From an uncultured Bacteroidia bacterium (GTDB taxonomy: Bacteria > Bacteroidota > Bacteroidia > Bacteroidales > UBA932), in the NCBI GenBank assembly GCA_902778105.1, contig CACYWN010000005.1:30866-94865 (forward strand): DNA of 64,000 nucleotides, written 5' to 3'. Shown here one piece after another: positions 1,175-10,431 of the stretch. The notes below the pieces were generated by a model. The model was not told where the DNA came from and searched no databases. It saw only the letters and a list, made by a program, of their open reading frames with translations. The first letter of the stretch is position 1; each line of letters begins with the position of its first letter. The translations under genes were made by a program, and so were the position numbers.

Positions 1175-1205
1175 CAAAGATAGGACATTTTCACGAATAA
1201 TCAAA
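1175..1205 (-). promoter_or_regulatory. Bacteroidetes-type promoter for the FlaA1/WbpM-like gene
   Basis: On the minus strand TTTG (1205-1202), a 19-base spacer and TATCTTTG (1182-1175) match the Bacteroides -33/-7 consensus TTTG-N19-21-TAnnTTTG exactly. The -33 box lies inside the last codons of the upstream DUF4954 gene. The predicted 5' leader is about 25 bases. Confidence 0.7.
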
Positions 1206-3180
1206 GACACAGCCGGCCTAGCAGTTCGTCCCCCAAGGCCTCCTTCACCCGGATATGCTCTAAAACTGCCTGAACGAATGAGTTCGACTCGAAATCGCCC
1301 CGGACCTGCTCGAAGTCCAGCTGTTTCACTTCCCGGGAGCCATCGGCTCCGAAGCCGGTCATCGAAGCCAGGCTGAACTCCTTTTTCGCATCCTCGTACA
1401 GCATCCGGTCCAGGCCGATGACCGCCTCCTTCCATCTCTCCACGATTTCCCGCACCTCGGAAGCCGTGATCCGCTCCAGGGGATACCCGAAGAATTCGGC
1501 ATACTTGTCATAAGCCCAGGTCCATTCAAGCCGGTAGTAATCCGCATGCATCTGCCGGAAATCCGCATCCACCGTCTCCAGATCCTTCGCCTCCCCCGAC
1601 TCGATGCGGTCCAGGAGCGCATCCACCAGGCCTTTCGGTGCAATGAGTCCACCCAGGTCGGTCCATTTTCCCTTTCCGCCTTCCCTTTCCGGCCGGAGCA
1701 TCACCCGGATTTCCTCATCCGACGCTCCCGCGGGCAGGTTTTCCAGTTTCTTGATGATGGAATTCCCCAAAAACTTGGTAATGGCCGTCCGATACAACTC
1801 GATTCCCTTCCGGAGCGAACTGTTCCTGATCTTCGCGCTATGGAAAGCGTAAACATCCGAAAGTTCACCGGAGGAATACTGCAGGTTCTGGAGCAGTTTG
1901 ATGCCTTTGAACATCTTCTGGATGGTATACGGGCTCAGCAGGTTGAAATTGATGCAGTCCAGGCGGTCCGGATCCTTGCGGGCGTCGCGCTTGGGCCACT
2001 TCTGGGCGTCGCGGATCGTGCCCACACTGCGGAGATTCACCCCTGGAACCAAATAGGTAGTATTCTGCTGCTCAATAAGATAGGAGAACGGAAGGGCGGT
2101 CGTGTCGGAATGGTTCACATGCCGGCCCATGACCAATGAGAAGGCGCCCACGCGGGAGGGCCAAAGGATGTAGGAATCGGAGGCCGTCTTGGACCCCCGC
2201 TCCAGGATGCCCTGGTGGATGGGGCCCAGTTTGTACATGTGGTTAGACTGGTTGGACCCGCTGCCTGCGTTCATGAAGGAAAAGAGGCCGGCGATCAGGA
2301 GCGTAGACTTGTGATGGGTCACGGTGAAAGGCCCCGCAAAGATGGCGCAAGCCTCCCCGTTCTCTCCCTGGCAGTTGGAGAAAAAAAGGGAATCCGATGC
2401 GCTGTAGCCATGGCCGAAATGACATGCCTGACCGATAAAACAGCGCGTAAGTGTCGTATTGTCCGTAATATGCGAGCCGCTCGAAATGATGAAATCGTCA
2501 GCGATCACCCCATGGCTGATGGTCACAGGGGCGGCCTCGTTACTGTTCACGCTGCCGTTGCGGAGCCGGTTCACGCCGCTGAGGACCGCATAGTCTCCCA
2601 CCCGTACCCCACTGAGGAAACGGGTATTCCGTATGGTGACATGGCTGCCGATGGAACCGACGGAAGACTCCTGCTTCGAGGCATAGTCGTCCACCATCGC
2701 ATCCAGGGCTTTCACCAGTTCCGGCCGGTGGCGGTACATCGCCATCACATAGGCTATCTGGGCGCTCAGCCTGTCGTAGATCTTCACCTCCCGGCCGCCC
2801 GTCTCGTTCATCACGGACACCACCACCCCGTTGCCGAACCGGCACGGACCGTCGGTCAGCACCAGGTCCACATTCTCCAGGACGGTATCGTGGCCGATGG
2901 AGTAATTGGCGATATAATTGGACACATTCTCAATCAAGCAGTCATCCCCTACCGTCACATTGTGGAGCGTCGCGTCGCGAATCCCGGCGTGCTTCCTGAG
3001 CCCGCCGGGAAACTCGAATACCCGGTCAAACCGGCCGAAACGCACCGTCCCGGAAAACCGCACCCGGCAGATGTGGTCCACCTCCGGCGCGTCCGTAAAC
3101 ACCGTTCCCCAATCGTCCGCCTCGCAGCCAGCAGCCACGAGCCGCTCAATCTCCTTCTGCGTAAGATTTCTGTAAGCCAT
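1201..3180 (-). CDS. DUF4954 family left-handed beta-helix protein
   Basis: A 659-residue protein that I recognise as the DUF4954 family of Bacteroidetes, whose biochemical role is not established. The N-terminal 350 residues contain hexapeptide-like turns (for example VGDDCLIENV, IGHDTVLENV, VRVGDYAVLSGV) typical of a left-handed beta-helix as in nucleotidyltransferases and acyltransferases. The C-terminal third is helical and ends in a segment possibly matching DUF6819. No signal peptide is visible, so it is probably cytoplasmic. The start at 3180 is one base downstream of the ABC transporter stop, so it is co-transcribed with the exporter. The beta-helix suggests binding of a sugar nucleotide or phosphosugar, but that is inference. 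Confidence 0.82.
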   Translation of the reverse strand: MAYRNLTQKEIERLVAAGCEADDWGTVFTDAPEVDHICRVRFSGTVRFGRFDRVFEFPGGLRKHAGIRDATLHNVTVGDDCLIENVSNYIANYSIGHDTVLENVDLVLTDGPCRFGNGVVVSVMNETGGREVKIYDRLSAQIAYVMAMYRHRPELVKALDAMVDDYASKQESSVGSIGSHVTIRNTRFLSGVRVGDYAVLSGVNRLRNGSVNSNEAAPVTISHGVIADDFIISSGSHITDNTTLTRCFIGQACHFGHGYSASDSLFFSNCQGENGEACAIFAGPFTVTHHKSTLLIAGLFSFMNAGSGSNQSNHMYKLGPIHQGILERGSKTASDSYILWPSRVGAFSLVMGRHVNHSDTTALPFSYLIEQQNTTYLVPGVNLRSVGTIRDAQKWPKRDARKDPDRLDCINFNLLSPYTIQKMFKGIKLLQNLQYSSGELSDVYAFHSAKIRNSSLRKGIELYRTAITKFLGNSIIKKLENLPAGASDEEIRVMLRPEREGGKGKWTDLGGLIAPKGLVDALLDRIESGEAKDLETVDADFRQMHADYYRLEWTWAYDKYAEFFGYPLERITASEVREIVERWKEAVIGLDRMLYEDAKKEFSLASMTGFGADGSREVKQLDFEQVRGDFESNSFVQAVLEHIRVKEALGDELLGRLCL

Positions 3181-6838: not shown

Positions 6839-7783
6839 CTACCGCTCAGCACGCATGGGGTTGTTCAGGAAGTCGGTGTAAGCGAGGCGGATACCGTCCT
6901 CGAGTTCGGTGTGGTAAGTCCAGCCGAGGGAGGTGGCTTTGGAGACGTCGAGGAGTTTGCGCGGGGTGCCGTTGGGGCGGGTAGTGTCCCATTCGATGCG
7001 GCCTTCATAGCCGACCACCCGGGCGACAAGCTCTGTCAATTCCTTGATACTCAACTCCTTTCCAGTCCCGGCATTCACCGTTTCATTCCCACTGTAGTTA
7101 TTCATCAGGAACACGCACAGGTTCGCGAGGTCGTCGACATAGAGGAACTCGCGCAAGGGAGAACCGTCCCCCCAGCAGGTGACGGACTCCAGCCCGGCCA
7201 CTTTCGCTTCGTGGAAGCGGCGGATCAAGGCAGGCAGCACATGGGAATGCTCCGGATGGTAATTGTCATTGGGCCCGTACAGGTTCGTAGGCATCACGGA
7301 AATGTAATCCGTACCATACTGCCTATTCAAAAACTCGCAGTACTTCAGCCCCGAAATCTTCGCCAATGCATACGCCTCGTTCGTCTTCTCCAGCGCACCC
7401 GTCAGGAGGCAGTCCTCCTTCATCGGCTGGGGAGCCAGACGCGGGTAAATACAGGACGATCCCAGGAACTCGAGCTTCCGGCAGCCATTCTTCCAAGCCG
7501 CATGTATCACGTTCATTTCCAAGATCATATTCTCGTACATGAAGTCCGCGAGGGCGCTCTGGTTGGCGACGATGCCGCCCACCTTGGCCGCTGCAAGGAA
7601 CACGTACTCCGGCTTCTCGGCGGCGAAAAACGCCTCCACATCGACCTGTCGGGTCAAATCCAATTCCTTGTGCGTGCGCAGGACCAGGTTCGTGTACCCC
7701 TGGCGCTGCAGTTCACGCACGATGGCCGAGCCCACCATCCCCCGGTGGCCCGCCACATAAATCTTAGCGTTCAAATCCATCAT
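6839..7783 (-). CDS. fcl: GDP-L-fucose synthase
   Basis: Converts GDP-4-keto-6-deoxy-D-mannose to GDP-L-fucose by epimerisation and NADPH reduction in the cytoplasm. The 314-residue SDR protein has the Fcl N-terminus ([15 protein letters not shown]), the SSCIYP motif around residue 109, [11 protein letters not shown] with the catalytic Tyr/Lys, and [20 protein letters not shown], diagnostic of the family. Length matches the usual 310-320. The start ATGATG overlaps the previous stop by 4 bases. Together with the nearby gmd it completes de novo GDP-fucose synthesis. Confidence 0.96.
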
Positions 7784-8943
7784 AATGCTCCTCTCCTTCT
7801 GATATGCAGTTCAATAGCCCCTTCCGGGAAATGCGCCCGGTCGGCGCAGACAAGGGCGAGATAGCCCCCGCCCCCGGCGCCCGGCATCTTCCACGCCAGG
7901 ACACCGTCCATCGAACCATACTTGTCAATATACTCAGGCACCCCCGGCTGGATCATCGCCGGGAACATGGCGACCTGGGCCTCGAACGAGGCCTTGTACG
8001 CCGCCGCAAACCCGGCCAGATCACGGGCCAGAATCGCATTCCAGCACGCCTCGGCCGCAGCCGCCAACGCCTCGACCTTCGGCTTCGTGATATCCTTCCC
8101 CTCCACCACTGAGCAGCCCGGCCGGCGCGGGAACATCGGAATCATGCACAGGTGATCCTCCAGCCAGCACAATACCGCCTCGTCGTGGCAGGACTCAATC
8201 TTTTCCGGCCAAAAACGTCCTCTGTACCAATGCCTTACAAGCCCAGGCATGCAAATGCCGATGGAATCCTGCGCCCCGGAAATGATCCCGTCGGACCGCT
8301 CCGGATCATTCTCGAAGCAGAAAACCAGCTTCGCCAGTGTCTCCGGATCCATGTTCGGCAGCTGGAAAGGCCAGATCTTCCGGATCATGTTCCGGGTCGA
8401 TGTGGACAGCCCGCACCGCTCCCGCACCTCGAAAGTCGGCTCCAGGGAAATGGTCAAGGCCCATCCCGGCGCAAAGCAAGACACATACGGCTGGTCAATC
8501 CAGGTGCCCGCGAGATCCAACCGCGTCGGAATCTGGCAGGGCGTCTGCTTCAGCGCCGTGCTGGAGCGGGCTTCCAGCCCCTCCTGCGGCGTGCGCTGCA
8601 GCACAACATACCTGATTCCTCGCTCCTCGCACAGCCGACGCTTCTCCTCGCTGCACCCATCCTCGTTCACGACGAAGATATCCGGCTTCACGATATCCAG
8701 CGTCGGCACAAAGTCCATCACACCGTCCCCCGCATTGATGAACGCATCCTTCACATACCGGATCGCCTTCACCATGAACAACCGCTCGTTCTCGCTGTAA
8801 ATGGTCTTGTGATGCTTATAATGCAGGATCGTCTCGTCCGAGCCAATCCCGACATACAAGTCCCCGAACTGCGCCGCCTGCCGGAAAAACTCCACGTGCC
8901 CGCTGTGCAGCAGGTCGTAACAACCTGATACGAAAACTTTCAT
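7780..8943 (-). CDS. Nucleotidyltransferase-GHMP kinase-like fusion protein
   Basis: About 387 residues in two domains. Residues 1-130 are a cytidylyltransferase-like fold with [14 protein letters not shown] (HxGH-type motif) and a C-terminal ARSSTALK resembling the RT.G.SST motif of GCT/HldE-type enzymes. Residues 136-387 resemble the fucokinase/HddA branch of GHMP kinases: [10 protein letters not shown] is motif 1 and MPGAGGGGY motif 3. The usual phosphate loop (PxxxGLGSSSA) is not present; the corresponding stretch reads [14 protein letters not shown]. The ATG at 8943 is preferred over the TTG at 8949. Lying between gmd and fcl it probably acts on fucose, heptose or a related sugar; the substrate is unknown. 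Confidence 0.75.
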
Positions 8944-8953
8944 AATCAATGAT

Positions 8954-10261
8954 TTACTTCACGATACCCTTCTCCAGGTACTCTGCCAGATTCATCCGGA
9001 CCTTCTCCGCAGCGCCCTCGCCGGCGACCTTCGCCATGTCGTGCTCGACCATCAGCTTCACGAGCTGCTCGAAGGAGGTCTTCTGCGGATTCCAGCCCAG
9101 CTTCGCCCGGGCCTTGGTCGGGTCGCCCCACAGGTTCACGACATCGGTAGGCCGATAGAAGTCGGGACTCACCTCCACGAGGGTCTTGCCGACCAGGTCG
9201 GCAGGACCGGCGATGCAGACGCCCTTCTCATCGGCACCCTCCCCTACGAACTCCAGTTCGATGCCCACATGATGGAAAGCCAGCTGGCAGAACTCGCGCA
9301 CGCTGTGCTGCACGCCCGTCGCGATCACGAAGTCCTCCGCCTTCTTCTGCTGAAGGATCAGCCACATACATTCCACGTAGTCCTTCGCGTACCCCCAGTC
9401 GCGGAGGCTGGAAAGATTGCCAAGGTACAGTTTTTCCTGCTTACCCTGGGCGATACACGCGGCCGCCAAAGTGATCTTCCGCGTCACGAAAGTCTCGCCC
9501 CGGCGCTCGGACTCATGATTGAACAGGATACCCGAGCAGCAGTACATCCCGTAGGCCTCGCGATACTCCTTCACGATCCAGAAACCATAGAGCTTCGCCA
9601 CCGCATAAGGACTGTACGGATGGAAGGGAGTGTTCTCATTCTGAGGCACTTCCTCCACCTTTCCATAGAGCTCAGAGGTCGATGCCTGATACACCCGGCA
9701 CGTCGCGCCAAGCCCGCACTGCCGCACGGCCTCCAGCACGCGGAGGACGCCGGTCGCATCGACATTCGCCGTATATTCCGGCGAGTCGAAGCTCACCTGC
9801 ACATGGCTCTGCGCCGCCAGATTGTAGATCTCGTCCGGCCGGACCTTCGCCACCACCTGCACGAGGCTCATGGAGTCGTTCATATCGGCATAATGCAGAT
9901 GGAAATGCGGCCGCCCCTCCAGATGGGCGATGCGCTCGCGAAAGTCCACCGAACTCCGGCGGATGATCCCGTGCACGTCATACCCCTTCTCCAGCAGGAA
10001 CTCCGACAGGTACGAACCGTCCTGGCCCGTCACGCCCGTAATCAATGCAGTCTTCATAGGATGATGTCTATCTTTTGTCAAGTTGATTTCCAAGGCCGAT
10101 TCAATCTGCCGCAGACTCCGCGCGCCGATGCCGACCTTTCCCGCGAGCCACCGGCTCACCACCGTCTCGTCCTTCCCGAGCCTTTCGGCTAATTCCCGCT
10201 GAGAAACGCCCTTTCCAGCCAATGCAGCCTTGATTTTGCCGATAATTTCATAATCTACCAT
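8954..10261 (-). CDS. gmd: GDP-mannose 4,6-dehydratase with an N-terminal XRE-type helix-turn-helix domain
   Basis: Residues 69-435 (from the internal ATG at 10057) are a full-length Gmd: [39 protein letters not shown] with the catalytic Tyr/Lys, and VLxA-type C-terminus. It converts GDP-mannose to GDP-4-keto-6-deoxymannose for Fcl. Residues 1-68 are a complete Cro/C1-type helix-turn-helix ([20 protein letters not shown]) joined in frame with no stop through LTKDRHHP. The ATG at 10261 is chosen because an ideal promoter ends 5 bases before it; a longer in-frame extension back to 10309 or 10339 would overlap the promoter. Separate translation of Gmd from the internal ATG is possible. The operator-like repeats upstream suggest autoregulation (inference). 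Confidence 0.9.
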
Positions 10262-10266
10262 AGGCA

Positions 10267-10297
10267 CAAAGTTACGCCATTCGCCCGACTTGACAAA
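10267..10297 (-). promoter_or_regulatory. Bacteroidetes-type promoter of the HTH-gmd gene
   Basis: Minus strand TTTG (10297-10294), 19 bases, TAACTTTG (10274-10267): an exact match to the consensus. The -7 box ends 5 bases before the ATG at 10261, so the message should be leaderless or nearly so. A CTTGAC half-site (10289-10294) touches the -33 box, a position suited to repression. Confidence 0.72.
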
Positions 10298-10317
10298 ATT
10301 TTCCGCCATAAAAATAA

Positions 10318-10342
10318 TGCTTGACAAAACAATAGTCAAGCA
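10318..10342. promoter_or_regulatory. Perfect inverted repeat upstream of HTH-gmd, candidate operator
   Basis: TGCTTGAC, nine bases, GTCAAGCA. The half-site with its flank, CTTGACAAAA, recurs at 10289-10298 (at the -33 box) and, in opposite orientation, at 10073-10082 just ahead of the internal gmd ATG. The arrangement fits a dimeric HTH regulator binding its own promoter; binding by the fused HTH domain is inference. Confidence 0.55.
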
Positions 10343-10356
10343 TTCCGTTCATTGTT

Positions 10357-10431
10357 GGACATCGGACAGGGGGATGGACCTCCGAAAAAAGTCGGCCCAT
10401 CCCCCTGTCCGATGTCCTTCCCCGAAGGGAA
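10357..10431 (-). terminator. Large hairpin plus UUCG-loop hairpin after the aspartokinase-like gene
   Basis: Just past the stop codon at 10436 the minus strand first forms a small hairpin TTCCC-TTCG-GGGAA (10431-10418, a UUCG tetraloop) and then a perfect 21-base-pair stem (10417-10397 with 10377-10357) around a 19-base loop containing six T. No T-tract follows the large stem, so termination efficiency is uncertain; it may also insulate the gmd promoter. Confidence 0.55.

Follow-up and report, generated by a model that had tools for sequence, protein, structure and literature searches.

A GDP-mannose 4,6-dehydratase with an N-terminal helix-turn-helix domain, a probable regulator of its own operon in Bacteroidales

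Why should an enzyme of sugar-nucleotide metabolism begin with the domain of a transcription regulator? The question is raised by one gene in a stretch of 64,000 nucleotides from an uncultured Bacteroidia bacterium, which we call the window. A sequence-only reading of this DNA had described a complete Cro/C1-type helix-turn-helix domain (HTH) that runs in frame into a complete GDP-mannose 4,6-dehydratase (Gmd). The gene and its two parts are:

8954..10261, minus strand: HTH-Gmd fusion gene, 435 amino acids (open frame and profile matches)
10076..10234, minus strand: Cro/C1-type HTH (HTH_3), residues 10-62 (profile and predicted structure)
8954..10057, minus strand: Gmd part, residues 69-435, with TIGR01472 at 70-410 (profile and PDB matches)

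That description is borne out. From the ATG at 10261 to the stop codon at 8956-8954, the frame runs through 435 codons without interruption, with an internal ATG at 10057-10055, and both domains score above the cut-offs of their profiles. In Pfam and NCBIfam profile searches, HTH_3 (PF01381) reaches 33.4 bits in the full protein and 38.1 bits for the HTH alone, the cut-off being 23; GDP_Man_Dehyd (PF16363) matches residues 73-404 with E 1.6e-140; and TIGR01472 (gmd) matches residues 70-410 at 503.5 bits, against a cut-off of 415, over positions 1-340 of its 342. Residues G76, G79, Q80, D81, G82, T195, S196, E197, Y219 and K223 are invariant in an alignment of 11 fusions: we take the set G76-G82 to be the Rossmann GxxGxDG motif, and T195/S196-E197, Y219 and K223 to be the catalytic residues T/S-E ... 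Y-x3-K. By profile and motif residues, the gene encodes a complete GDP-mannose 4,6-dehydratase, and dehydratase activity is predicted.

The HTH is predicted to form four helices, with block-mean pLDDT values of 81-92 over residues 1-60. We used only this part of the predicted structure, because the alignment behind it, of 15 rows, lacks the depth needed for the Gmd part (mean pLDDT 61.5, pTM 0.46). From the profile match and from the promoter sites described below, we infer that the HTH binds DNA. Upstream of the ATG at 10261 the frame stays open as far as a TTG at 10339; the stretch between these two codons, variable in length and sequence among relatives, contains the promoter and the operator-like sites.

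There is always the possibility that chance read-through or an assembly artefact has joined an HTH gene to gmd: the source genome, of 2.66 Mb, lies in 48 contigs and is 84% complete. It has a single HTH-Gmd gene, its remaining matches being weak SDR relatives. The sequence-only reading had named as one refuting outcome a sequencing error at the junction, visible as a stop or a frameshift in related strains, and had proposed a search of Bacteroidales genomes for the architecture. This search finds it in 39 genomes, 17 among 400 of the window's genus and 22 through further searches, and all 39 fusion frames are free of stops.

Within 61 close genomes, the source genome included, the fusion is present in one other species, at 89% identity and ungapped at the junction. 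A query that joined the HTH to the first six residues of Gmd found fusion frames of 434-478 amino acids in 11 of 200 genomes of the genus, again counting the source genome. A profile built from 11 fusions matched 104 of 400 genus genomes at E 1e-60, and in 17 of the 400 the whole fusion is covered (profile positions 1-430 in 13 genomes, 1-420 in three, and 4-430 in one). In the family of RUG376, the HTH profile matched 47 of 261 genomes at E 1e-11; 20 of these matches lie in frames of 323-481 amino acids, 19 with Gmd, two of them cut at contig ends, and one IspD-like. The 37 genomes of the Horse_feces24 genus include three with HTH-Gmd, one of which carries HTH-Gfo/Idh as well, and two with HTH-IspD. 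A scan of public genome contigs yielded at least 45 loci, several of them from the same genomes as the genus searches. The first 15 consist of 14 HTH-Gmd fusions and one HTH-IspD fusion (L158); 19 of the 30 loci beyond L160 were inspected among the matches listed, and none is fused to such an enzyme. The titles of the records mention goat, sheep, water buffalo and horse samples, together with RUG and SRR metagenome-assembled genomes without a host, and records named Bacteroidaceae, Prevotellaceae and Candidatus Colivivens equi.

Wider samples return little. In 233 genomes of the phylum, a sample that covers HTHs like that of the window, the HTH profile at E 1e-12 finds, besides the source genome, only three frames of 104-186 amino acids. 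At the level of the order, only the source genome covers the HTH from residue 1 among the matches listed for the fusion profile (393 genomes). The HTH profile (386 genomes) gives, besides the source genome, about two dozen frames of at least 200 amino acids among the matches listed. Six of these were inspected, including all those above 250 amino acids, and none is a sugar enzyme: two are presumably XRE-peptidase-like, three S24-type-repressor-like, and one another XRE protein. A 555-residue frame in genome G081 was rejected as a fusion, its HTH being located near the end of the frame.

The two parts of the gene can also be compared codon by codon, in the 66 pairs formed by 12 close fusions. 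Codons 1-62, the HTH, have a mean pN of 0.158 and a mean pS of 0.552; for Gmd codons 71-300, the values are 0.033 and 0.559. The HTH is thus under purifying selection, though it evolves faster than the enzyme part. Since 39 genomes share the architecture and the HTH is under such selection, the fusion is not a sequencing error; with the frame conserved as well, we reject a chance or artefactual joining, whose probability is practically nil. Nor are the relatives always organised with the HTH as a separate gene, the other refuting outcome named in the sequence-only reading: a simple motif scan finds no HTH within 600 nucleotides upstream of 70 unfused gmd loci.

In a Gmd tree of 106 distinct sequences, 38 of them fused, the label "fused" changes 9 times at best count, and at least 8 changes are forced by well-supported branches. 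On this tree, the HTH has been gained, lost or exchanged several times. A phage or plasmid source for it is unsupported: two phage records match, at 34-36% identity, and a search of plasmids at E 1e-4 gives no match.

On what, then, does the HTH act? Three elements lie upstream of the start codon:

10320..10340, minus strand: distal operator-like palindrome CTTGAC-N9-GTCAAG (exact nowhere else in the 2.66-Mb genome)
10289..10298, minus strand: proximal operator-like half-site TTTTGTCAAG (overlaps what is presumably the -33 element of the promoter)
10267..10274, minus strand: -7 promoter box TAACTTTG, 5 nucleotides ahead of the HTH start codon

In order to compare these elements across fusions, the loci were labelled type A or type B by a script, from the pattern of the recognition helix. 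Type B consists of L122, L264-L267 and L269; L268 is labelled type A yet has an N-terminus that resembles type B, the label predating this observation. In the 120 nucleotides upstream of the 33 loci labelled type A, GTCAAG or CTTGAC is observed 64 times, against 1.35 expected from resampled sequence, and 32 of the 33 have at least one half-site, the exception being L268. Such a half-site is found upstream of only 2 of the 70 unfused gmd loci, which are best matches rather than a random sample; one of these two is among the 24 unfused loci from the window's genus. Because the operator-like sites accompany the fusions and are rare at unfused gmd, the HTH very probably acts on its own gene, and the earlier suggestion that the enzyme controls its own expression gains considerably: DNA-binding autoregulation by HTH-Gmd is, on these sequence comparisons, a reading in which we have high confidence. 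The six type-B loci have no GTCAAG or CTTGAC in the 120 nucleotides upstream. At these loci and at L268, neither such sites nor a clear alternative was found upstream, and the promoter-site case for autoregulation consequently excludes them.

The sites also keep their places. Leaving out L268, a TAnnTTTG box is recognisable in 30 of 32 type-A loci. The palindrome CTTGAC-N7-9-GTCAAG was searched for freely within 150 nucleotides, with 0-2 mismatches of 12: its best copy, which is exact in 5 type-A loci, lies 44-48 nucleotides ahead of the -7 box in 28 of the 30 boxed loci (the exceptions are L157 and L262), and an exact GTCAAG lies 14-17 nucleotides ahead of the box in 24 of the 30. As described in PMC7366714, the consensus of Bacteroides promoters contains a -33 TTTG element, and in our reading of the sequence the proximal half-site would fall on this position. 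These operator-like promoter sites, shared by loci with this type of HTH, are reported here for the first time.

Among 16 fusion genomes, an exact CTTGAC-N7-9-GTCAAG is found at the fusion in only 6, upstream in the source genome, G698, G120 and G141 and inside the gene in G215 and G194; it is found only elsewhere in 5, and nowhere in 5. In the source genome, as in G698, the copy at the fusion gene is the single one. Over the 16 genomes, it is no commoner than its reversed control, with 23 forward matches against 36, and we therefore claim no wider regulon. In the 64-kb window, TTGTCAAG occurs in three exact copies, all at the fusion gene: their number is ordinary, since 15 of 100 shuffles have as many, and it is their location that is unusual.

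One site lies within the coding sequence:

10073..10082, minus strand: intragenic half-site CTTGACAAAA, codons 60-63 (AAC TTG ACA unchanged among 12 close fusions)

The codons for N60-L61-T62 are AAC TTG ACA in all 12 close fusions, within the identical 11-nucleotide run AACTTGACAAA; among the 138 invariant four- or six-fold columns of these fusions, one codon is used throughout in only 6. The frozen codons point to selection at the DNA level in the window's clade. In G215 and G194, which have another Gmd subtype, CTTGAC is present at nearly the same spot in a different reading frame. A coding half-site ahead of the enzyme exists in 21 of the 33 loci labelled type A, 19 times at nucleotides 165-183, and is absent from the other 12; it exists in 3 of the 6 type-B loci, at other positions. 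DNA looping between the upstream and intragenic sites is raised here only as a possibility.

An HTH could also be kept for another purpose: having ceased to bind DNA, it would only aid the folding or the oligomerisation of Gmd. XRE domains can dimerise. The functional form of Gmd is, according to PMC9415975, a dimer or a tetramer. However, residues Q21, A25, E32, S36, R37, W38 and G41 are invariant in all 16 HTHs compared, and the operator-like sites co-occur with the fusions, so that we regard this explanation as very improbable.

Autoregulation by a fused protein supposes that the fused protein is made. The promoter box TAACTTTG at 10267-10274 is indeed 5 bases ahead of the HTH ATG, as the sequence-only reading had noted. 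Of the 17 loci in the window's genus, 13 have the box 4-5 nucleotides from the ATG; of the 22 others, 16 have it at a distance of 22-39 nucleotides. From the short distance we infer that the fusion mRNA of the window is leaderless or nearly so. This class is rare in Bacteroides, where about 3.7% of 5' UTRs are shorter than 10 nucleotides (PMC7366714), and its rarity lends some weight to the idea that two products are made, HTH-Gmd from the first ATG and, from the internal start at 10057, a plain Gmd that would do most of the catalysis. A junction ATG is present in 18 of the 39 fusions, that of the window included. However, in 21 of the 39 the last nine codons ahead of the Gmd glycine motif contain no ATG (L266 and L269, among these, have one slightly further upstream), and in 14 of the 39 they contain neither ATG, GTG nor TTG. 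A separate Gmd from an internal start cannot therefore be the general rule, though in the window it may be made. Of the earlier proposal that both a fused and a separate enzyme are made, the fused frame stands and the separate product is weakened; we consider the two-product explanation unlikely.

We now turn to the genes that an autoregulator would control. Two of them follow the fusion:

7780..8949, minus strand: second gene, with a CTP_transf_like N-terminal domain (gene map and Pfam)
6839..7783, minus strand: fcl, GDP-L-fucose synthase-like, on the same strand as the fusion

The second gene sits between gmd and fcl, and its C-terminal part of about 250 residues has no Pfam match at E 1e-5. 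The fcl product scores 478.0 bits against NF047922, slightly below the cut-off of 500. A gene-order map shows an fcl match on the same strand in 18 of the 19 relatives' loci that include Gmd; the match in G775 has only 47% identity, and G120 has no fcl in its stretch. Farther downstream, at 1201-3180, the window encodes a DUF4954 and DUF6819 protein. Several relatives have this gene in the same position downstream of the fusion, together with two ABC transporter genes.

In four relatives (G173, G003, G784 and G748), a GC-rich hairpin with a T-run, identified by eye, separates the upstream gene from the sites, and so the fusion is probably the first gene of its own transcription unit; a terminator scan finds none at that place in the window itself. 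There, at 10358-10420, between an ACT-domain aspartate-kinase-like gene and the operator-like sites, one sees by eye a long, nearly perfect inverted repeat whose loop contains a T-run. In some relatives this position is taken by ordinary terminator-like hairpins.

It is natural to conjecture that one polypeptide serves both as enzyme and as autoregulator of the GDP-fucose operon to which it belongs, a "trigger enzyme", and we hold this to be probable. HTHs brought together by Gmd oligomers would bind CTTGACA half-sites at the distal palindrome, at the proximal half-site by the -33 element and, within the window's clade, at the intragenic site. Binding would block RNA polymerase, and HTH-Gmd would then repress its own GDP-fucose operon; the binding could be tuned by the state of the pathway, with GDP-fucose, GDP-mannose or NADP(H) bound to the Gmd part. 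We lean towards repression with moderate confidence, since the proximal site occupies the -33 position; activation would be the less likely sign. Control by a nucleotide sugar or a cofactor is put forward more tentatively. Somoza et al. (2000) are said to have found that E. coli Gmd is regulated by GDP-fucose, and it is from this regulation that we guess at control by a ligand; GDP-fucose, the end product of the pathway, would be at least as likely a ligand as GDP-mannose or NADP(H).

Autoregulation might equally proceed without any sensing: the fusion would tie the amount of repressor to the amount of enzyme, a form of operon homeostasis in which metabolites are irrelevant. The operator-like sites at the fusion's own promoter, with an exact palindrome nowhere else in the source genome, suit this explanation, and so does the company that related HTHs keep. 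They are fused to Gmd of two subtypes, to an IspD/TarI-like cytidylyltransferase in two genomes (L158:6001-6957 and L241:1501-2430), and to a Gfo/Idh/MocA oxidoreductase in one, G810 (L252:1480-2640), which carries an HTH-Gmd fusion as well. As these enzymes have different substrates, a common ligand is unlikely. However, a separate small HTH gene would serve homeostasis equally well, and the fused state changes at least eight times on the Gmd tree, which suggests that joining adds something. Regulation without sensing is, in our estimate, a little short of an even bet.

The second HTH subtype on Gmd (L122, L264-L269) has an N-terminus like MTREEK, mostly the motif EAE[VI]SRW, and a linker that is mostly longer; CTTGAC and GTCAAG are absent upstream. 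TTGTTAA-like sites occur 4 times upstream of L122, L158 and L241, against 0.39 expected, in a count over three loci picked after looking; five other loci with EAE, ETE or ESE have one in all. A TTGTTAA-like second operator for such HTHs is a lead only. At L252, the 200 nucleotides upstream contain neither TTGTCAA nor TTGTTAA.

A bolder generalisation, to which we give distinctly less than even credence, is that in Bacteroidales an XRE domain and its own operator sites form a movable control cassette, repeatedly joined to enzymes of surface-sugar operons (two subtypes of Gmd, an IspD-like cytidylyltransferase and a Gfo/Idh oxidoreductase). Each enzyme would have become a repressor of its own operon, gated by a metabolite, and this repressor would, in the window's clade, bridge the upstream palindrome and an intragenic operator. 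Related HTHs joined to different enzymes could show how the ligand state of an enzyme is coupled to a DNA-binding domain.

The control of capsules in Bacteroides is known mostly through invertible promoters and antitermination factors. If HTH-Gmd acts as we propose, fucose-containing surface sugars of gut Bacteroidales would in addition be under direct metabolic control by an enzyme that carries its own repressor domain. In the PMC literature, no title among those listed points to a Gmd or other sugar enzyme with a DNA-binding domain.

Both parts of the protein have counterparts of known structure. The whole enzyme part, residues 70-410, is like E. coli Gmd (PDB 1db3, E 9.6e-136), but among the best 60 of 101 matches the Gmd chains of the PDB align from residue 66 or later, and not over the HTH. 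The solved chain nearest to the HTH is 3bs3, of Cro/C1 type (XRE), which shares with it the HTH_3 profile and the four helices, predicted in our case. The PDB matches of the HTH are mostly small DNA-binding proteins, antitoxins and MBF1-like proteins, whereas in the fusion the domain forms the amino-terminal end of an enzyme.

The closest analogues in function are trigger enzymes with a DNA-binding domain, of which PMC8249747 describes PutA, NadR and BirA. Here too, an enzyme and a DNA-binding domain are found in one conserved polypeptide, with 39 fusions and an HTH under purifying selection. As in these three proteins, a metabolic enzyme and a transcription regulator would be combined, the regulation by HTH-Gmd being proposed from its promoter sites. 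PutA, a regulator with a single target, works on the stretch between its own gene and putP (PMC8249747). The enzymes themselves differ: PutA is a proline dehydrogenase, NadR an NMN adenylyltransferase and BirA a biotin ligase, whereas the window's enzyme is an SDR sugar-nucleotide dehydratase with a DNA-binding domain of the XRE type.
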